Assembly (NCBI GenBank): GCA_009885845.1
Contig: VFJW01000015.1
Location: 1 to 59,496 of the forward strand
Reading direction: 5' to 3'
Source: Geobacter sp.
GTDB lineage: Bacteria > Desulfobacterota > Desulfuromonadia > Geobacterales > Pseudopelobacteraceae
DNA length: 59,496 nt
Program-made: the position numbers and the translations under genes
The notes under the pieces: generated by a model
What the model was told of the DNA's origin: nothing
The model's database searches: none
The model's input: only the letters and a program-made list of their open reading frames with translations
Part shown: positions 2,828-29,067 of the stretch, piece after piece
Layout: each line of letters starts with the position of its first letter
Numbering within the stretch: position 1 is the stretch's first letter

Positions 2828-4825
2828 ATGACACCAAATCAGTTCATTTTTATCCCGCTCCTGATCGCTTCCCTATCCGTCTTTGCCTGGGGATGCTGGA
2901 AACGCTTCAGTCTGATTTCTCTCGGTCGCCCGGAAGATCGATTCGACAATATCGGGACGCGTCTTGGTGAGATGCTGCTCTATGCCTTCGGGCAGAAGCG
3001 GGTGGTTGCCCAGCCGTTCGGCATTAACCATTTCATCATTTTCTGGTCGTTTCTTATTCTGCTGGTGGCAAACACCGAGTTCATTCTGAACGGACTGTTC
3101 CCCCATACAATCAAACTCATCAAACTTCCTTTCGAGCTGTACGTGCCGCTCGCCTTCATGATTGACATCGCATCATTACTCGCGCTGGCTGCGGTAACGG
3201 TTGCAGCGGTGAGACGACTGTTTGCTCCTCCTTATCCGGAGGCCCGCACACCGGAAGCTTTTTTCATCCTGGGGCTGATAGCTACGCTGATGCTTGCCTC
3301 TTTTGCGCTCAATGCCTCGGAGCTGGCGGAATTCGTTGTTAAATCGCGGGTTGATCCGGCTTCGTTTTTTGCTTCGGCGAGAAAAGTCATGCCCGTATCA
3401 GGGTGGCTGGCAGGGCTGCTGCTGCCACTGCCGCTCGGAACAATCCATGTGGTTGCCTGGTGGGCCCACGCTCTGGCCCTTTTTGCGTTCATGTGCTACC
3501 TGCCGAACAGCAAGCATATGCATATCCTGACTGCGATCCCGAACTGTTTTTTCAAGCGTCTGGAAAAACCGAACACCCAGCCGCGTGAAGAATTCACAGC
3601 GGGCAATACATTCGGTGTTGCCCGGGCAGATCACTACAGCTGGAAAGATCTCCTCGACTCATTTTCCTGTACGGAATGCGGCCGCTGTCAGAACGTCTGT
3701 CCGGCCAGTATAACCGGCAAACCGCTTAATCCGCGCGCAGTTATTCATGATATCAAAGTAAATCTGCTGGAGAACGGCACGGAACTGAAAAAGGGGAATG
3801 CTCCTCAGACGCCGTTGATCGGTGAAGGGGGTGAAGGGAGCATATCCGAGGAGTCGATCTGGGGCTGTACCACCTGCGGAGCCTGTATGGAAGCCTGTCC
3901 GGTCTTTATCGAACAGATGCCTAAAATCATCCAGATGCGGCGACACCTTGTTGAAAGCGAAGCAAAATTCCCCGAAGAGCTGCTGAACCTGTTTGAGAAT
4001 ATGGAAGGGCGCAGCAATCCCTGGGGAATTGCACCTTCAGAGCGGACCAAATGGTGCAGTCAGTTGGAAGTAAAACCGTTCGACCGTGATACGACCGAAT
4101 ATCTGTTCTATGTGGGTTGCGCCGGTTCGTTTGATTCACGCAACAAACATGTCAGCGTAGCGATGGCTCAACTTCTTGACCGGGCCGGCGTTTCGTGGGG
4201 GATCCTTGGCAAGGATGAAAAATGTTGCGGCGACAGTGTGCGCAGACTGGGGAATGAATTTGTCTTCGACAAGATGGCGCGGGAAAATGTTGCGACGTTC
4301 ATAGAGCGTGGAGTAACAAAAGTCATTACGCAATGTCCGCACTGTTTTACCACTCTGAAAAACGATTATCGGCAGTTCGGTCTTGAACTGGAAGTCATCC
4401 ACCATAGCGAACTGCTGCGCAACCTGGTACAGGATGGGCGGCTCGTTCTTGATAAAACTACGGCAGAAACGGGATCGACCGTTTTTCATGACTCCTGCTA
4501 TCTTGGCCGCCATAACGACGTGTACGATGCCCCCCGGGAAGTAATAACGGCTGCTACCGGCAGTGCCCCGGCTGAGATCGCTCGCAACCGGAACAATGCG
4601 TTCTGCTGCGGCGCCGGCGGCGGCAGGATGTGGATGGAGGAACATGTCGGAGAGCGGATCAATCTGACGCGCGTCAAGGAAGCTCTTGAACAGAAGCCCG
4701 ATACGATCTGCGTTGCCTGCCCCTACTGCATGACAATGTTTGAAGATGGTCTTAAGGATGTCAAGGCCGATAACGTCAAGGTGCGTGATGTTGCAGAGGT
4801 GATGGCTGAGGCGCTGCTGCGCTGA
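2828..4825 (+). CDS. Membrane FeS oxidoreductase, EtfAB:menaquinone oxidoreductase type (CCG domains)
   Basis: This 665-residue protein has several hydrophobic segments in residues 1-235, matching a NarI-like membrane domain. Two [4Fe-4S] motifs follow (Cys 281/284/287/291 and 347/350/353/357). Two cysteine-rich CCG domains come next (CAGSFDS...EKCCGD and DSCYLGRHND...FCCGAGGGRMW), the HdrD/GlpC-type domains that bind clusters. The architecture matches the ETF:menaquinone oxidoreductase of syntrophs and Geobacter, which takes electrons from EtfAB into the quinone pool. The ATG at 2828 has GAGGT 7 bases upstream. An in-frame extension to 2765 would translate a repeat arm and is rejected. The gene ends the etf operon. 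Confidence 0.9.
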   Translation: MTPNQFIFIPLLIASLSVFAWGCWKRFSLISLGRPEDRFDNIGTRLGEMLLYAFGQKRVVAQPFGINHFIIFWSFLILLVANTEFILNGLFPHTIKLIKLPFELYVPLAFMIDIASLLALAAVTVAAVRRLFAPPYPEARTPEAFFILGLIATLMLASFALNASELAEFVVKSRVDPASFFASARKVMPVSGWLAGLLLPLPLGTIHVVAWWAHALALFAFMCYLPNSKHMHILTAIPNCFFKRLEKPNTQPREEFTAGNTFGVARADHYSWKDLLDSFSCTECGRCQNVCPASITGKPLNPRAVIHDIKVNLLENGTELKKGNAPQTPLIGEGGEGSISEESIWGCTTCGACMEACPVFIEQMPKIIQMRRHLVESEAKFPEELLNLFENMEGRSNPWGIAPSERTKWCSQLEVKPFDRDTTEYLFYVGCAGSFDSRNKHVSVAMAQLLDRAGVSWGILGKDEKCCGDSVRRLGNEFVFDKMARENVATFIERGVTKVITQCPHCFTTLKNDYRQFGLELEVIHHSELLRNLVQDGRLVLDKTTAETGSTVFHDSCYLGRHNDVYDAPREVITAATGSAPAEIARNRNNAFCCGAGGGRMWMEEHVGERINLTRVKEALEQKPDTICVACPYCMTMFEDGLKDVKADNVKVRDVAEVMAEALLR

Positions 4826-4866
4826 GCCGACTGCAACGGCACATCGAGCTGTTACGCTGTTCACAG

Positions 4867-4909
4867 CAATGAAGCCGGACATGCGTTCCCCGTGTGTCCG
4901 GTTTCATTG
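4867..4909 (+). terminator. Hairpin after the etf operon (probable terminator)
   Basis: CAATGAAGCCGGACA at 4867-4881 pairs with TGTCCGGTTTCATTG at 4895-4909, giving a 15-bp stem with one G-T pair and a 13-base loop. It sits 40 bases after the operon stop. No long T-run follows, so intrinsic termination is likely but not certain. Confidence 0.6.
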
Positions 4910-4995
4910 TCCCTAAAAATATCCCGGCCGGTTTCCCGTTACCTCCTCCCCGTCTCTACCCTTATTCCCTTGACCATCGGGTATGCAAAGTATTT

Positions 4996-5005
4996 TTGTA
5001 TACAA
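4996..5005. promoter_or_regulatory. TTGTATACAA operator upstream of pckG
   Basis: This exact copy of the 10-bp core palindrome seen before etfB lies 82 bases before the pckG start. The surrounding sequence is AT-rich promoter-like DNA, with a TATGCT near 5036 as a possible -10. The flanking half-site bases are less symmetrical here than at 207-226. Shared use suggests one regulator controls both acyl-CoA-linked electron transfer and PEP carboxykinase. Confidence 0.5.
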
Positions 5006-5086
5006 CTCATTTAAGTTCTTTTTATTTAGCTATCGGTATGCTATTTAATTGAAACTAAATTTTAATACCTCAATCGGGGAGGCGGC

Positions 5087-6934
5087 ATGAGTAACCAGGG
5101 CAAAAATGAGCAACTGACCAAGTGGGTAAAAGAAGTCGCGGCATTGTGTGAACCTGAAACTATCCATTGGTGCGACGGTTCGCAGGAGGAATATGATTCG
5201 CTCTGTAATCAGCTGGTAGAGAGCGGCACCTTTAAAAAGCTGAACCAGGAGAAGCGTCCGAACAGCTATCTGGCCTGTTCAGACCCGGGGGATGTTGCGC
5301 GGGTTGAAGACCGCACGTTTATCTGCAGTATTTCCAAGCAGGATGCCGGCCCGACGAATAACTGGATGCACCCGAAAGAGATGAAGGAAACTCTGCATAA
5401 GCTCTTCAAAGGGTGTATGAAGGGTCGCACCATGTATGTCATCCCGTTCAGTATGGGTCCACTCGGCTCGCCGATCGCCAAAATAGGCGTTGAAATCTCA
5501 GACTCCCCCTACGTTGTTGTCAATATGCGTATCATGACCCGTATGGGCAAGGCTGTTCTTGACGTGCTGGGCAATGGTGAATTTGTCCCCTGCCTGCATT
5601 CGATCGGTGCCCCGCTTGCGGCCGGCCAGAAAGATGTCCCCTGGCCCTGTAACAAAGAGAAGTATATCGTCCACTTCCCCGAAGAGCGTTCGATCTGGTC
5701 GTACGGCAGCGGCTACGGCGGCAATGCCCTGCTCGGCAAGAAATGTCTGGCGCTGCGGATCGCCTCCAAGATTGCCAAGGACGAGGGCTGGCTCGCTGAG
5801 CATATGTTGATCCTCGGCATCGAATCGCCAGATGGAGCAAAGACATACCTCGGCGCCGCTTTTCCGAGTGCCTGTGGCAAGACCAACCTGGCAATGCTGG
5901 TGCCACCGGACACCTTTGAGAAGACCGGATGGAAAGTTTCGACCGTCGGTGATGATATCGCCTGGATCAAGCCCGGTCCTGACGGGCGACTGTATGCAAT
6001 CAATCCTGAATACGGTTTCTTTGGCGTCGCACCCGGCACGTCCGTGAAGACGAATCCGAACGCCATGGCTTCCTGCGCTGCCAATTCGATTTTTACCAAC
6101 GTTGCACTCACTCCGGACGGAGATGTCTGGTGGGAAGGGATGACCGACGCCAAACCAGCTCTTCTGACCGACTGGCAGGGGAACAAATGGACGCCGGATT
6201 GCGGCAGAAATGCGGCTCACCCCAACTCCCGCTTCACTTCGCCGGCCGGTCAGTGTCCATCGATTGATCCTGAATGGGAAAATCCGAAGGGTGTTCCGAT
6301 GGCGGCCTTCATCTTCGGGGGGCGTCGCAACAACGTTGTTCCGCTTGTATACCAATCGTTCAACTGGAGTTTCGGTGTTTATATGGCGGCCACAATGGGT
6401 TCGGAAACAACTGCCGCCGCCGTCGGCGCCACTGGTGCGGTCCGTCGTGACCCGTTTGCCATGCTGCCGTTCTGCGGCTATCATGTTGCCGATTATTTTG
6501 CCCACTGGTTACAGGTAGGTCGGACAACACCTATTCCGCCACGCATTTTCAGCGTCAACTGGTTCCGTAAGGATGTCAACGGCAACTTCCTCTGGCCCGG
6601 ATACGGCGAGAATATGCGCATCCTGAAGTGGATTATCGAAAGGGTGAATGGTAATGGAGCTGCGGTTGAAAGTCCGCTGGGATGGATGCCGAAGTATGAA
6701 GATCTCGACTGGACCGGACTGGACAGTGTCAGTCGTGAGCAGTTCTATGAACTGATGTCGGTGGATCGCGATGTCTGGAAAGAGGAGATTGTTTCCCACG
6801 AAGAGCTGTTCGTCAAAATGTACGATCGACTGCCGAAAGAGTTCCTGCATATCCGTCAACTGATTCTGTCCGGGTTGTGGCGTTCACCGGAGCATTGGGA
6901 ACAGTTCCATCCTGCAGCGGAACCGGTCAAGTAA
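5087..6934 (+). CDS. pckG: Phosphoenolpyruvate carboxykinase (GTP)
   Basis: This 615-residue protein matches the usual length of GTP-dependent PEPCK. It interconverts oxaloacetate + GTP and PEP + CO2 + GDP, an anaplerotic or gluconeogenic step in the cytoplasm. The phosphate-binding kinase loop is [10 protein letters not shown] at residues 259-268, with the hyper-reactive Cys263 typical of the GTP class. Other family blocks are [22 protein letters not shown] and [26 protein letters not shown] precedes the ATG. The gene is monocistronic, with an operator-like palindrome upstream and a strong terminator 24 bases downstream. Confidence 0.97.
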
Positions 6935-20157: not shown

Positions 20158-23100
20158 ATGGCTAATCAATTTTTTGGTTTTTCCCCTGAAGCATTCGAGC
20201 AATTTGTGCGTGCACTTGCCTTATCTGTTTTTGGACCAGGAGTAACCACTTTTGGCAATGGGCCGGATGGAGGGCGAGAGGCTACTTTCCGCGGGGAAGT
20301 TCCATTCCCTTACCCGCCAGCCACACAGTGGTCGGGGTATGGTGTAATTCAAGCGAAGTGCAAAGAAAAACCTGATTCTAGTGAAAAAGAAACAAAGTGG
20401 GCGTTGCAACAGCTTGACAATGAATTGAAGACTTTTGTGAAAAGCAAAAAACGTGATCCGAAACCTGAGTTTTATGTTTATGCCACCAATGTAGAACTTT
20501 CCTCGGCTGCAGGTGGGGGAAAGGATCAATGCAACAAACTTATTGAATCATATAACGTAAAACTGCCGATTAAAGGGCATGCAATTTGGGACGCAAACCA
20601 ACTTAACGGATTCTTAGCTGCAAATGAATCGTTACGTAAGCGATTTATCTCATATCTAACTCCAGATGATATTCTTGCAGCTATGCTAGCAGACATCGAA
20701 CGAAGGCGACCTAACATAAACCTAATTTTAACATCCTTCTTGGAACGTGAGTTACGTGCAGATGAAGTATCCCGGTTAGAGCAGGCTGGCAATCGAACCG
20801 AGGAGCAACTAAGACTAGCCCGTTTATTTTTTGATCTTCCAGTATCGACAGAACCTCAATTAGTACCTCCTGATGACGAACCTACCGCTGATGGAAATTT
20901 GCCTCCTGGTGTACTCTGGGAACTTCTTCAAGCAGGATCACGAAAACTCGATCCAAAAACACTTTATGAGCAAGAAACAGCTTCATTTGAAGGAACTCAA
21001 GAACAATTTCCAACGCGGTTCGTACTTCTCGGCGGCCCTGGCTCAGGTAAATCAACAGTTTGCCAATTCCTAGCACAGATACATCGTTCTGCCCTTCTCG
21101 GAAGGCGTGAAGCACATTTACTTGAACCGCAGACTCGCAAGATCATTGAGGAAACGCGTCAACTATGTAATCGTGAAGGTCTAAGTTGGCCTGCAACGCC
21201 ACGTTACCCACTCAGAGTAGAGCTAAATAGATTTGCTAGAGCGTTAGCTTCAAAGGATGAAGATCATGTCCAGAGTTTAGAACGTTATCTGTTAAACGGC
21301 ATAAAACGTGATCACAAGATGAATAACGAAGATCTTATTGAGTGGCTTGCTACCTACCCGTCACTATTAATTTTGGATGGATTGGACGAGGTGCCCGCCA
21401 CTAGCAACCGAGATGAATTAGTAAAATCGGTAAATGATTTTCTAGCCCAAGCACGCCAAGTTGGCGCAGACCTTTTTGTTGTTGCAACCTCACGGCAGCA
21501 GGGTTACGCGGGTGAATTTGCCAGTGGATTTGTAGCATTCCGACACGTCTTGCCACTCTCAACAATAAGAGCACTCAAATATGTTGAGCGATATGCTGAT
21601 GCAAGATTTGGGACATCTGATCCAAACAGGTCTAAGGATATTGTTGATAAGCTCCGTCAGAGTTCCAAAAGAGATCTTACTGCGCAGCTTATGAGTTCTC
21701 CTTTACAGGTGACCTTTATGGTTACAGTTGTCGCCGCAAAGGGCGATCCTGGAGAAGATCGTTGGCAGTTATTTGATAGCTACTATCGTACTATTTACGA
21801 TCGAGAACGTCAGAAAGCAGTCCCACCTTATGATGCTGTGCTGAGCAAACAACAACCTACAATTGATCGGTTGCATCACGACATCGGATTCTGGCTTCAG
21901 TACCGAGGTGAGACAGAAGGCGGCACAGCAGTCAGTCTGCCAATAGTTCAGTTTGAGAGACTTGTAGACACATATTTAAGTGAAATTGGTCGAGAGGGCT
22001 CTGAAAAAGAGCAAAAGGTCAAACTCATAACAGATGCCGCTCGTCATCGTCTTGTCTTTCTCACAAGTAGAGTAGAAGGTGAACTTTGCTTTGATGTTAG
22101 GTCACTTCAGGAATATATGGCTGCAGAGTGCTTAATGACAGGTAACCCTGATGTGGTGATATCAAGGTTGCGAGCAATTGCTTCAGTGCCGTATTGGAGA
22201 AATGTCTTTTTATTTTCCGCGAGTAAGTGTTTTGCAGACGCTCGTTCTCGTCATTTGCATGATGCAATCCGACTATTATGCGAGGATCTCAATAGTCCCA
22301 GTGATGGATTGCTAGAAGCAACTAAGGCGGGATCTGAGCTTGCAATTGATGTTCTACAGAGCGGTGCCGTAGCCGAAAACCCAAACTACGCCAGACACTT
22401 GGCTCGTATTGGTTTGGCACTGATCAGCGAACCCTACATGGTAGGAAAGTCGAAAGAGGGTGCATCAGCTGACCAGCGACTGGCTATTGTTTACAATCAT
22501 GATTTAGAAAGCATCTACCGCAACGAATTAGAACTTCGCATCGGTCAAACAGAGGTAAATAGGACTTTCGGAGCTTGGCTGCTGCTATTCCGGTTAATTA
22601 ACAGAGACATTGACTGGGCAATTCCGTTAGCAGAAAAATACTGGCACTGTGACATGGATCAATTGATTAAATTCCAATTAAATTTTCCTGAAATGTTTAA
22701 AACAGTGTGGCTACGAGGAAAACTCACTGAAACTCTATCAAAAAAGTCCCCATCAAAATGTGGCGTTTTTCTATACCGTTGCAGAGATATCTATGATGTT
22801 TCCGATCCCCTAAGTGCACTTTGTAGACTAATAGATGGGCAAGAGAAGATGTACTCATCTCTGAACATTTTTAGTCAAGACAGCAAAGACAACTTGTCTT
22901 TAACATTCACGACGACCAGAGGTGGAAATACCTATTATGGCCTGTTGGAAATGTTCCCTCGTAACCATCCGGGCTGGTTACCATTTATTTTGGTAAACAA
23001 GTTCTACAAATTACCCGGCAATACAACCCTTGCGACAATACTCAAAGAATGTGCAGATGGCGGTTGGGAATCATCAGATAAGGCTTTATTGGGAATTCTA

Positions 23101-24162
23101 CCTTGGCCGTTATCCAGTTGTTTGCAAATTGTGCAATCTACAGAAGATCTGCTAGATTTAGCACAATTAATTGAGAACGGTGCATTAGGCAGCATTGAGG
23201 ATTGGATTGCTGCAGAAGAAAGGTGGCAGTCAGAAGGGATTAATATTGATGATATTCTTCAACAATCAGATAGCTCGTTGCCATTTGGTTCCGCAATAAG
23301 CAAAATCGGTTTGCCAGCAAGTTATAGTCAAAGCATTACTCAAAAAGTATATCCTGACTCGACCATCAAGACTTTGATAACTACATCCCAAAAAGTCATG
23401 TCTGACAGAGAACAACAGATGCTTTTTTGGTTTCTTTGTTTAGCCAGCAAGAACAGTGCTGGCAGCATAGTTAAACATATTAGCCCGTCGAATTTTCGCA
23501 TTCTGTGCGAAAAAATTCCTTCCTCAATTTGGTGGTCACACAGTTGCATTGCATGCCCTAAAGATCCGAAGTTGCAAGACAAATGGGTTAGTTTTTTTGA
23601 TTGGCTGGGTCGGTCGGAAAAATTAGGTCAATATTATCCGCCTCACGAAAGTGATTTTGCCGACAATGATCCTGGTTGGTGCGAAATATTTCAACAGGCA
23701 TTTATACGCTCAAGAGAGCAAAACGGACTAATTCGACATTTAGCTCGACTTGCTGCTGACGGCCGAGTGATCACTTTAATTCCACTTGAGTTTCTTTACT
23801 TACAGTCATTTTCAGATTCACGTGACCAATTAGCAGCAGCCCTCATTCGGTTAACACAGCCAGATCTGACGTCAACCGAAGCAATATCTCTTGCTGATGC
23901 TGTGTCTATTCTCTTGGAAATACCTCCGGAGCCTTGTTCAGGCAAGCTCGTATTTCGAACTTGTGAAATGCATCTCGACCGTGTTCCAACTATAGGTCAA
24001 TTCCTTCTGCGACTACATGGAAGAATTCCTGCGAATGTAGATTTGGGGGTTGCAAATTGTGAACGACTGCTCAGAAATGTTCTCAGAAGACGAGCAAGCG
24101 ATTTACATCTAATTGGCCGAATTGAAGAAATGCAGCTTCCGTCCCTGCCTCATACCAATTGA
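20158..24162 (+). CDS. Mrr-like nuclease fused to NACHT ATPase (Avs/bNACHT-like antiphage protein)
   Basis: This 1,334-residue protein has three parts. Residues 1-150 carry a PD-(D/E)xK-type core with GPDGGREA (Asp37) and VIQAKCK (Gln65/Lys67), the D...QxK pattern of Mrr-like restriction nucleases. Residues 285-700 form a NACHT STAND ATPase: Walker A GGPGSGKST at 292-300, Walker B LLILDGLDEVP around Asp407, and the downstream FDVRSLQEYMAAE block. Residues 700-1334 are an unrecognised, probably helical sensor region. This effector-STAND-sensor layout matches bacterial Avs and bNACHT proteins, which recognise phage components and activate a DNA nuclease. AT-rich codon use fits horizontal transfer. 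The phage trigger is unknown. Confidence 0.85.
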   Translation: MANQFFGFSPEAFEQFVRALALSVFGPGVTTFGNGPDGGREATFRGEVPFPYPPATQWSGYGVIQAKCKEKPDSSEKETKWALQQLDNELKTFVKSKKRDPKPEFYVYATNVELSSAAGGGKDQCNKLIESYNVKLPIKGHAIWDANQLNGFLAANESLRKRFISYLTPDDILAAMLADIERRRPNINLILTSFLERELRADEVSRLEQAGNRTEEQLRLARLFFDLPVSTEPQLVPPDDEPTADGNLPPGVLWELLQAGSRKLDPKTLYEQETASFEGTQEQFPTRFVLLGGPGSGKSTVCQFLAQIHRSALLGRREAHLLEPQTRKIIEETRQLCNREGLSWPATPRYPLRVELNRFARALASKDEDHVQSLERYLLNGIKRDHKMNNEDLIEWLATYPSLLILDGLDEVPATSNRDELVKSVNDFLAQARQVGADLFVVATSRQQGYAGEFASGFVAFRHVLPLSTIRALKYVERYADARFGTSDPNRSKDIVDKLRQSSKRDLTAQLMSSPLQVTFMVTVVAAKGDPGEDRWQLFDSYYRTIYDRERQKAVPPYDAVLSKQQPTIDRLHHDIGFWLQYRGETEGGTAVSLPIVQFERLVDTYLSEIGREGSEKEQKVKLITDAARHRLVFLTSRVEGELCFDVRSLQEYMAAECLMTGNPDVVISRLRAIASVPYWRNVFLFSASKCFADARSRHLHDAIRLLCEDLNSPSDGLLEATKAGSELAIDVLQSGAVAENPNYARHLARIGLALISEPYMVGKSKEGASADQRLAIVYNHDLESIYRNELELRIGQTEVNRTFGAWLLLFRLINRDIDWAIPLAEKYWHCDMDQLIKFQLNFPEMFKTVWLRGKLTETLSKKSPSKCGVFLYRCRDIYDVSDPLSALCRLIDGQEKMYSSLNIFSQDSKDNLSLTFTTTRGGNTYYGLLEMFPRNHPGWLPFILVNKFYKLPGNTTLATILKECADGGWESSDKALLGILPWPLSSCLQIVQSTEDLLDLAQLIENGALGSIEDWIAAEERWQSEGINIDDILQQSDSSLPFGSAISKIGLPASYSQSITQKVYPDSTIKTLITTSQKVMSDREQQMLFWFLCLASKNSAGSIVKHISPSNFRILCEKIPSSIWWSHSCIACPKDPKLQDKWVSFFDWLGRSEKLGQYYPPHESDFADNDPGWCEIFQQAFIRSREQNGLIRHLARLAADGRVITLIPLEFLYLQSFSDSRDQLAAALIRLTQPDLTSTEAISLADAVSILLEIPPEPCSGKLVFRTCEMHLDRVPTIGQFLLRLHGRIPANVDLGVANCERLLRNVLRRRASDLHLIGRIEEMQLPSLPHTN

Positions 24163-24301: not shown

Positions 24302-25051
24302 GAATATCTGGGGACATAATACAGATTAAATATTGACTTTACGAAGTCGCGTAAATACTATCCTGCCATGGCACGCATCTCTCGCATAGTTGTTCCTGAC
24401 TACCCGCACCACGTCACCCAACGCGGCGTTCGCTCAATGGATGTCTTCGATTCTGATGAAGACCGCAGGATATACCTCAGTTTTCTGTCTGAAGAAGCAA
24501 ACCGCTCCGGACTGGTTATTCCCGCCTGGTGTCTCATGACCAATCATGTCCATTTTATCGCTGTGCCACATACGGAAACATCGCTTGCCCGAGGGTTTGG
24601 CGAGGCCCATCGTCGCTATACCCGCATGAAGAACTTTGCTCAGAAGGTGCGAGGTTATTTGTTCCAGGGAAGATTCAGTTCAAGTGTACTTGACGAAAAT
24701 CACCTGTTGGCAGCTTTACGCTATGTGGAATTGAATCCCGTGCAGGCCGGCATGGTTGCCCATGCCTGGGAATATCCCTGGTCGAGCGCCAGCTACCATA
24801 CGGGCCGGGCTGAAACCGATCCGCTGGTTAAAGACAGGACGTTGTCAGGCATGATATCTGATTGGGAAGGGTTTCTGGCCGGGGATATGGCCGGTGAGGC
24901 TGACCAGCTTCGGAAGGCTACACAAACTGGTCGTCCGGTCGGAGATGGCATCTTCATTGCCAAAGTTGAAAATATGACCGGTCGAAATTTAAGCAAAGGC
25001 TCTCCTGGTCGACCGAGGAAGCAATAATCGGTATTATGTCCCCCGATATTC
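24302..25051 (+). mobile_element. RAYT (REP-associated transposase) element with terminal inverted repeats
   Basis: The 21-bp ends at 24302-24322 and 25031-25051 are inverted copies matching at 20 of 21 positions, with core GGGGACATAAT/ATTATGTCCCC. They enclose one transposase gene. An internally deleted relative lies at 28868-29067 and an isolated end at 30013-30028, so the family has been active in this genome. The element sits just beyond the island's last gene, perhaps marking its edge. Confidence 0.8.
24368..25027 (+). CDS. REP-associated tyrosine transposase (Y1_Tnp/IS200-like)
   Basis: This 219-residue protein starts MARISRIVVPDYPHHVTQRGVR, the standard RAYT opening. The HUH motif is HVH in TNHVHFIAVP and the likely nucleophile is the Tyr in HRRYTRMKNF. 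Further blocks are YLFQGRFSSSVLDENHLLAALRYVELNPVQAGMV and a basic tail GSPGRPRKQ. RAYTs nick and join single-stranded DNA at REP-like hairpins. It is full length and appears intact. Its 3' end, including GRPRKQ, is retained almost unchanged in the MITE-like copy at 28868-29067. Confidence 0.93.
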   Translation: MARISRIVVPDYPHHVTQRGVRSMDVFDSDEDRRIYLSFLSEEANRSGLVIPAWCLMTNHVHFIAVPHTETSLARGFGEAHRRYTRMKNFAQKVRGYLFQGRFSSSVLDENHLLAALRYVELNPVQAGMVAHAWEYPWSSASYHTGRAETDPLVKDRTLSGMISDWEGFLAGDMAGEADQLRKATQTGRPVGDGIFIAKVENMTGRNLSKGSPGRPRKQ

Positions 25052-28450: not shown

Positions 28451-28861
28451 ATGAAGAGTATCAGAGCAGTGTTGGTCGCGATTTTTTTCGCAGCAGTATC
28501 ATTACCGGCCTTCGGCGGCGATTACGTCACCATATCGAGTCCCGAACTGAAGGCGATGATCGACCGGAGCGAGCCGGCACCGGTGATCATTGATTCCCGC
28601 TCGCAGAGCCAGTTTGACCAGACCCGTATCAAGGGGGCGATCAATATCCCGCTGGCTGAGATGGAGCAGAACCCGGCGCTACCCAAAGCCCCAAAAGATG
28701 CACAGCTGGTATTCTACTGCAGCGGCAGCACCTGAAGGGGAAGTGCCGATGCGGCGCGTGTCGCCGTGCAACGCGGATTCACTCAGGTATTTCTCCTGAA
28801 TGGCGGACTGCCGGGATGGCAGGCAGCCGGGTTTCCGGTAGAAAACGGTGTCATAAAATAG
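28451..28861 (+). CDS. Exported rhodanese with in-frame TGA: probable selenoprotein
   Basis: The frame runs 94 codons, meets TGA at 28733-28735, and continues unbroken in the same frame for 41 more codons to TAG, giving 136 residues if TGA is read as selenocysteine (U95). There is a signal peptide (residues 1-22) and a rhodanese domain: VIIDSRSQSQFDQTRIKGA, IPLAEME, LVFYC, then after the TGA RGSADAARVAV, FLLNGGLPGWQAAGFPV. In this family the active-site loop reads YCxGxTCxxS; here it reads YCSGST-TGA-RGS, so the TGA occupies the catalytic Cys position. A SECIS-like hairpin follows at 28750-28770. The alternative is a Cys-to-stop nonsense mutation. Confidence 0.72.
28750..28770 (+). promoter_or_regulatory. 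Putative bacterial SECIS element
   Basis: GGCG and CGCC at 28753-28756 and 28762-28765 enclose a CGTGT loop, extended by TGC/GCA with a 2-base bulge. The loop starts 22 bases after the TGA and has G as its second base. Both features fit the published bacterial SECIS consensus (loop 16-37 bases downstream, G in the first two loop bases). SelB would bind this loop. Confidence 0.6.
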
Positions 28862-28867
28862 AAAAGC

Positions 28868-29067
28868 GAATACCAACTATCAAGGGACATAGTACAGATT
28901 ACATATTAACCGTGCTCCACTAATACAAGAGTGCCACACAATCAGATAGCCCTGCAGGAGATGATGAATTCATTGCCACAGTTGAACATATGACCGGTCG
29001 AAATCCAAGCAAAGGCTCTCCTGGTCGACCGTGGAGGCAATAATCAGTATTGTGTCCCCCGATATTC
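28868..29067 (+). mobile_element. MITE-like internally deleted copy of the RAYT element
   Basis: The left end (28868-28910) resembles the RAYT element's left end in its GGGACATA.TACAGATTA.ATATT block. The last 100 bases (about 28968-29067) closely match the end of the RAYT gene and its right terminus, including the codons for the GSPGRP tail and TAATCAGTATTGTGTCCCC. The transposase middle is gone, leaving about 200 bp that could be moved in trans. It fills the gap between the selenoprotein gene and the YdcZ-like gene. Confidence 0.8.

Follow-up and report, generated by a model that had tools for sequence, protein, structure and literature searches.

An in-frame TGA in a Geobacter rhodanese gene, probably read as selenocysteine at the end of the active-site loop

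Results

The window analysed here, a stretch of 59,496 nucleotides from Geobacter sp. (assembly GCA_009885845.1, contig VFJW01000015.1), contains a small rhodanese gene crossed by an in-frame TGA. We propose, at a probability of about 0.8, that this codon is decoded as selenocysteine and that the selenocysteine occupies the final position of the active-site loop and not that of the nucleophile. Selenocysteine is supported because the genome carries the genes for its decoding, relatives share a TGA in the same column, 48 of the 59 matches have a cysteine there, a covarying hairpin follows the codon, and selection continues past it. The features discussed below are collected in Table 1.

Table 1. 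Features of the rhodanese gene, with positions in the window
Feature	Position	Strand	Basis
Putative selenoprotein gene	28451..28861	+	136-residue single-domain rhodanese ending at stop TAG; translated with TGA=U, PF00581 match
Probable signal peptide, MKSIRAVLVAIFFAAVSLPAFGG	28451..28519	+	Recognised by eye in the translation; N-terminus of the structure model has low confidence
Cys90 codon, likely rhodanese nucleophile, loop residue 1	28718..28720	+	Cys in 59/59 matches; alignment with YgaP Cys63; directly after model strand 85-89
TGA, predicted selenocysteine 95, loop residue 6	28733..28735	+	U in nine matches, C in 48, other in two (n=59)
SECIS-type hairpin	28751..28767	+	Stem 28751-28756/28762-28767, loop CGUGU 28757-28761; nine-gene comparison, RNAalifold, pair counts

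The TGA is the sole stop within the translated frame. The initial annotation had described a rhodanese frame that crosses this codon and runs on for 41 codons, and both the translation and the domain search bear this out: Pfam Rhodanese (PF00581) covers residues 31-126 (E 9.2e-19; 68.2 bits against a cut-off of 22.2), so that the domain spans the TGA. Searched separately, the 94-residue piece ahead of the TGA aligns with positions 3-71 of the 102-position profile; the 41 residues behind it match positions 74-102 at an E-value of 0.0016, below the curated cut-off. From just before the active-site loop, the 136-residue translation reads LVFYCSGSTURGSADAARVAVQRGFTQVFLLNGGLPGWQAAGFPVENGVIK to its end, U being the proposed selenocysteine. 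A predicted structure of the 136-residue protein has a mean pLDDT of 85.4. The N-terminus, judged by eye, suggests that the protein is probably exported or secreted. Since six of the 12 nearby open reading frames (ORFs) end in TGA, this codon is not reassigned as a whole.

Most of the apparatus for selenocysteine insertion is present. A tRNA-Sec scores 70.9 bits, above its cut-off, and is also found by ARAGORN; selB scores 376 bits and selA 609 bits. All three lie on one contig (C7) together with a second selenoprotein gene of the genome, encoding a formate dehydrogenase alpha subunit with a TGA in the motif RIUHS (L129; 455-3694, minus strand). The frame listed for the latter has a further TGA near its upstream end, ahead of the likely start. 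The initial annotation had proposed a check for selA, selB, selC and selD; the first three are thus accounted for, and selD gave no match above the curated cut-off in the draft assembly (179 contigs; completeness rating 99.08%) with either the family model or the SelD of a relative. The best match of the selD search was ThiL. Among the nine genomes with a TGA-bearing rhodanese, seven have selD above the cut-off, each copy with one TGA inside it, and the two that lack it are the window genome and G106, the latter 52% complete. A draft is no proof that a gene is absent, and we take the missing selD to be probably a gap in the 179-contig assembly, though the completeness of 99.08% speaks against this. 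All nine of these genomes have selA above the cut-off. Matches to selA occur in 48 of the 53 genomes with a rhodanese match and exceed the cut-off in 46 of them, so that having selA does not distinguish the selenocysteine genomes.

Relatives were sought across 141 genomes of the order at a threshold of 1e-17, which gave 59 matches in 53 genomes, the window protein included. Whether Cys or TGA occupies the column, a check proposed earlier, was read in all 59: position 95 is selenocysteine in 9, cysteine in 48 and another residue in 2, the last two having a shorter, PspE-like loop in which the column is not comparable. The TGA forms come from nine of the 141 genomes, among them that of the window; these nine represent a single family and, within it, five genera. 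A class-wide search (277 genomes including the order; 1e-24) returned 19 matches with the same nine TGA forms, and a search for related loci found three distant relatives only. One selenocysteine form (L112 in G106; 4447-5181, minus strand) appears by eye to extend through a further rhodanese domain, whereas the window protein has one.

Selection acts on both sides of the codon. When the window gene was compared with the eight other TGA-bearing genes, the signal region being dropped, pN/pS was 0.26-0.60 after the TGA and 0.33-0.62 before it, with synonymous sites saturated in two of these eight comparisons; purifying selection downstream of the TGA is like that upstream. This bears on one alternative, namely a broken gene, or one with a 94-residue product, in which the TGA is a true stop or arose by a sequencing error. 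The selD gene missing from the draft assembly and the ordinary stability of the free fold around the hairpin would suit such an explanation. It is nevertheless very improbable, given nine genomes with TGA in the same column, purifying selection that continues beyond it, and a 94-residue piece that stops short of the final third of the profile.

A tree was built from 57 of the 59 matches, omitting the two with the PspE-like loop (L103 and L106). It requires two changes between selenocysteine and cysteine, and the forks that decide their direction are weak (87/74 and 82/88). In three among the nearest cysteine forms (L014-L016) a SECIS-like hairpin stands at the offset seen in the selenocysteine genes, perhaps left over from an ancestor that encoded selenocysteine; as regards such a fossil, the protein sequence AARLAA alone yields 6/6 pairs in about 13% of recodings.

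The hairpin itself was found where the initial annotation had placed it, 15 bases past the TGA and with G second in its loop; the spacing from TGA to loop is 21 nt. In isolation it has a 5-nt loop, a 7-bp stem, G at loop position 2 and the same 21-nt spacing at -8.0 kcal/mol, and so falls within the bacterial SECIS model as set out in the available text of a 2026 review: a loop of 3-9 nt with G among its first two positions, a stem of 4-16 bp, a distance of 16-37 nt from the UGA and an energy of -7.5 kcal/mol or lower (PMC13188914). A 5-nt-loop hairpin with this 21-nt spacing also follows the TGA in eight further rhodanese genes of the order outside the set of nine (L053-L057 and L059-L061, described below). 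For the formate dehydrogenase gene fdhA, the hairpin scan ranked first a 3-nt loop at 23 nt and second a 5-nt loop at 22 nt.

How much weight this structure can bear depends on the background. Loose bacterial SECIS rules applied with no energy limit are satisfied downstream of 1254 of the 3897 codons in 12 nearby ORFs. At the exact offset and geometry, at least five of six pairs with G at loop position 2 follow 24 of the 3897 background codons, and all six pairs follow 4; at offsets 17, 18 and 19, where 18 is the true hairpin position, at least five pairs with G2 follow 51, 24 and 37 codons, respectively. Four stretches of 40-65 nt after the TGA folded freely with z-scores of -0.05, -0.11, -0.51 and -1.81 against shuffles, no more stable than these or mildly so, and the hairpin was the minimum-energy structure in none of the four. 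Two further searches were uninformative: Rfam SECIS_1 (RF00031) matched neither the window genome nor any of 14 controls, and a degenerate-codon search of the window returned no match, the gene itself included.

The comparison between genes says more. With the offset fixed, G at loop position 2 and at least five of six pairs, the hairpin is present in 9/9 selenocysteine genes versus 3/48 cysteine genes, and six of the nine have the full 6/6 pairs. Given the nine selenocysteine gene sequences and no structure, RNAalifold returned the same hairpin with seven pairs, three of them with a compensatory change. In the six-pair stem 94.4% of cells are paired across the nine sequences, against 27.8-83.3% when the stem is slid by 1-3 columns. 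None of 500 shuffles matched its percentage paired, its cells changed on two sides or its covariation score; shuffles reached the observed values in 148/500 cases for pairs with a two-sided change and in 163/500 for pair types. Random recodings that kept the amino acids and the local codon use gave the window gene 6/6 pairs in 12% of cases, and across the nine selenocysteine genes the observed number of pairs or more arose in 8-58%. The protein sequence itself thus favours pairing, so that the covariation of the hairpin depends in part on the amino acids. To some degree the hairpin simply follows from the encoded protein, and taken alone it proves little; it counts as more than chance because it is conserved across genomes.

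Within the protein, the loop reads YC-SGST-U, a CxxxxU motif in which Cys90 is followed five residues later by the proposed Sec95. Position 90 is cysteine in every one of the 59 matches, the window protein among them, and Ser98 is equally invariant (59/59). In the model of the window protein a strand at 85-89 leads into the loop, and a helix starts at 96. In a phmmer alignment Cys90 lies opposite Cys63 of YgaP (numbering counted along the alignment), which we take to be the catalytic residue of that protein. The PDB title of entry 5HBQ mentions a C63D mutant of the YgaP rhodanese domain. On the strength of the YgaP alignment and of the strand, loop and helix order in the model, the nucleophile would be Cys90, and the loop would end with Sec95. 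In bovine rhodanese, the sixth loop residue adjoins the nucleophile. These observations support Sec95 as a second residue of the loop, partner to the catalytic cysteine and not its replacement.

The initial annotation had reached a different placement. It put the TGA at the nucleophile of the active-site loop; the codon does correspond to the last cysteine of YCxGxTC, and the nucleophile is the first. Likewise, its selenocysteine is retained here, with the catalytic cysteine still in place at position 90, and its suggestion of a selenolate nucleophile that alters the sulfur and selenium chemistry gives way to a Cys-Sec pair. A version of that earlier idea, which concerns the role of the selenocysteine and not its presence, would make Sec95 the nucleophile that accepts sulfur or selenium and Cys90 its helper. 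Selenocysteine is a stronger nucleophile than cysteine, and residues 90 and 95 share one loop. The published table of the 2026 review also lists TsoB with selenocysteine at both positions. We regard this role as quite unlikely, because position 90 is cysteine throughout the 59 matches and aligned with YgaP Cys63, and because the two matches with a PspE-like loop retain the first cysteine without the second.

Discussion

We propose the following course for the window protein. A ribosome with SelB and tRNA-Sec would insert selenocysteine at the TGA, aided by the downstream hairpin. Cys90, as an ordinary rhodanese nucleophile, would accept sulfane sulfur (or selenium) and become a persulfide. Sec95, presumably close to Cys90, would act as its redox partner by attack on a mixed disulfide or on the persulfide of Cys90, with release of sulfide or product, and the Cys90-Sec95 selenenylsulfide left behind might then be reduced by a periplasmic thiol system. 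Cys90 and Sec95 are probably a pair that forms a selenenylsulfide or resolves persulfides. For the resolving role of Sec95 taken alone, we lean slightly in favour.

The main rival concerns what the protein is for and is compatible with the reading preferred here: the rhodanese might carry selenium, either passing on a Cys90 perselenide or storing or detoxifying selenite. The best clue comes from G019, where L015 (contig C109, 44-3318) together with L116 shows a consecutive row of selD, yedF, a two-domain Cys-type rhodanese akin to the window protein, and mnmH, the rhodanese being among the three nearest cysteine forms. A paper on Geobacter ExtI, in its available text, moreover refers to earlier work in which a rhodanese perselenide may serve to donate selenium. 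Against this, the row occurs in one genome, in which selA was not found, and L118 and L119, from two other genomes, have selD, yedF and mnmH with no rhodanese between yedF and mnmH. Six neighbouring ORFs were compared with Pfam; a selenium family was matched by none, and three had no match at all. An export-like protein would also be kept apart from cytoplasmic SelD. We therefore consider a selenium-carrying role unlikely.

The gene neighbourhoods were compared by eye from ORF lists, and no gene row is common to the eight other selenocysteine genes. Some pairs of them have something in common: in G119 and G120 one flank holds the same large gene, G005 and G106 have a similar HAD-like ORF after the selenocysteine gene, and G106 and G139 have a similar short ORF before it. 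Within the window, positions 28963-29043 read DEFIATVEHMTGRNPSKGSPGRPWRQ up to a stop and resemble, by eye, the C-terminal end of the ORF spanning 24368-25027; they are perhaps the remnant of a second copy. The ORF at 20158-24162 (1334 residues) has a P-loop, GGPGSGKST, as in NACHT-type NTPases, again judged by eye, and no Pfam match at 1e-5.

To return to the Cys-Sec pair, a broader and more speculative history could be drawn from it. Rhodaneses of this order might have converted a loop for sulfur transfer into a Cys-Sec redox pair (CxxxxU) that acts outside the cytoplasm to reduce persulfides or perselenides and no longer serves for sulfur transfer alone, and the hairpin of the nearest cysteine clade might be a fossil of a change from selenocysteine to cysteine. 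We offer this tentatively and think it less likely than not.

The placement of selenium matters for how such proteins are recognised and understood. A gene caller that ends at the TGA delivers a 94-residue fragment, and the protein is missed. With selenium at the last loop residue and not at the nucleophile, the relevant chemistry would be the reduction and resolution of persulfides or perselenides, not faster sulfur transfer. The coexistence of selenocysteine (9) and cysteine (48) forms among 59 matches from one order offers ready material for a comparison of what a rhodanese gains from selenium.

Selenoproteins of the rhodanese type have been described before. Rhodanese-related selenoproteins were reported from the Sargasso Sea in 2005 (PMC1088965) and from the GOS data in 2008 (PMC2398784), as far as the available text of these papers goes, and several appear in the accessible portion of a 2022 review (PMC9312934). 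The available part of a 2006 paper names no rhodanese in its rows for three Geobacter species (PMC1794560). Five rhodanese selenoprotein forms are distinguished in the table of the 2026 review, with the motifs UxxS, UxxG, CxU (NF041203), UxxG and, in TsoB, UxxxxU (PMC13188914). A literature search for a rhodanese with a second loop cysteine or a CxxxxC motif found nothing, and such a report may still exist in print.

The first of these forms, a rhodanese-like selenoprotein with PF00581 and UxxS, is represented in the same table by WP_010941598.1 (PMC13188914), an accession that also appears in the accessible portion of the 2022 review (PMC9312934). The window protein shares with it the rhodanese domain and a single selenocysteine followed by xxS (U-R-G-S), and could be a member of this form, the likeness being one of motif. 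Its best NCBIfam E-value, 1.3e-19, is to the rhodanese part of TsoB (rhodanese/DsbD fusion-like, NF045694), with which it also shares a selenocysteine five residues after the first loop residue. TsoB differs in being longer and in having two selenocysteines (UxxxxU) where the window protein has one TGA, and at 69.7 bits against a cut-off of 805 the latter is not a member. The rhodanese-related (seleno)protein family NF041203 (CxU) resembles it as a small rhodanese with selenocysteine in the loop; there, however, selenocysteine stands two residues past the cysteine instead of five, and 69.7 bits against a cut-off of 115 likewise leaves the window protein outside. The rhodanese domain of E. coli YgaP (2MOI, 5HBO) has the same fold and the same position of the first cysteine, but in the alignment has neither selenocysteine nor cysteine at the second place.

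Other rhodaneses of the order also carry selenocysteine in the loop. Five long rhodanese-type proteins (L053-L057; open frames of about 470-495 codons) have CxxxxU with selenocysteine in the equivalent position and a hairpin with the 21-nt spacing, yet are far longer than the window protein; the copy of this type in the window genome (L064) has cysteine at the selenocysteine position. Judging by size, we would guess that they resemble Geobacter ExtH, which the available text of the literature describes as a rhodanese-like protein of 49 kDa. Small CxU rhodaneses (L059-L061, with YCAU and YCNU) likewise have a hairpin at 21 nt. The hairpin scan of this set of ten TGA-bearing matches (L053-L062) left out L058 and L062, whose TGA codons lie near the match ends, outside the loop. 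Set beside these systems, the window gene is a good extra case of a protein type already catalogued, and its special point is the CxxxxU placement of the proposed selenocysteine.
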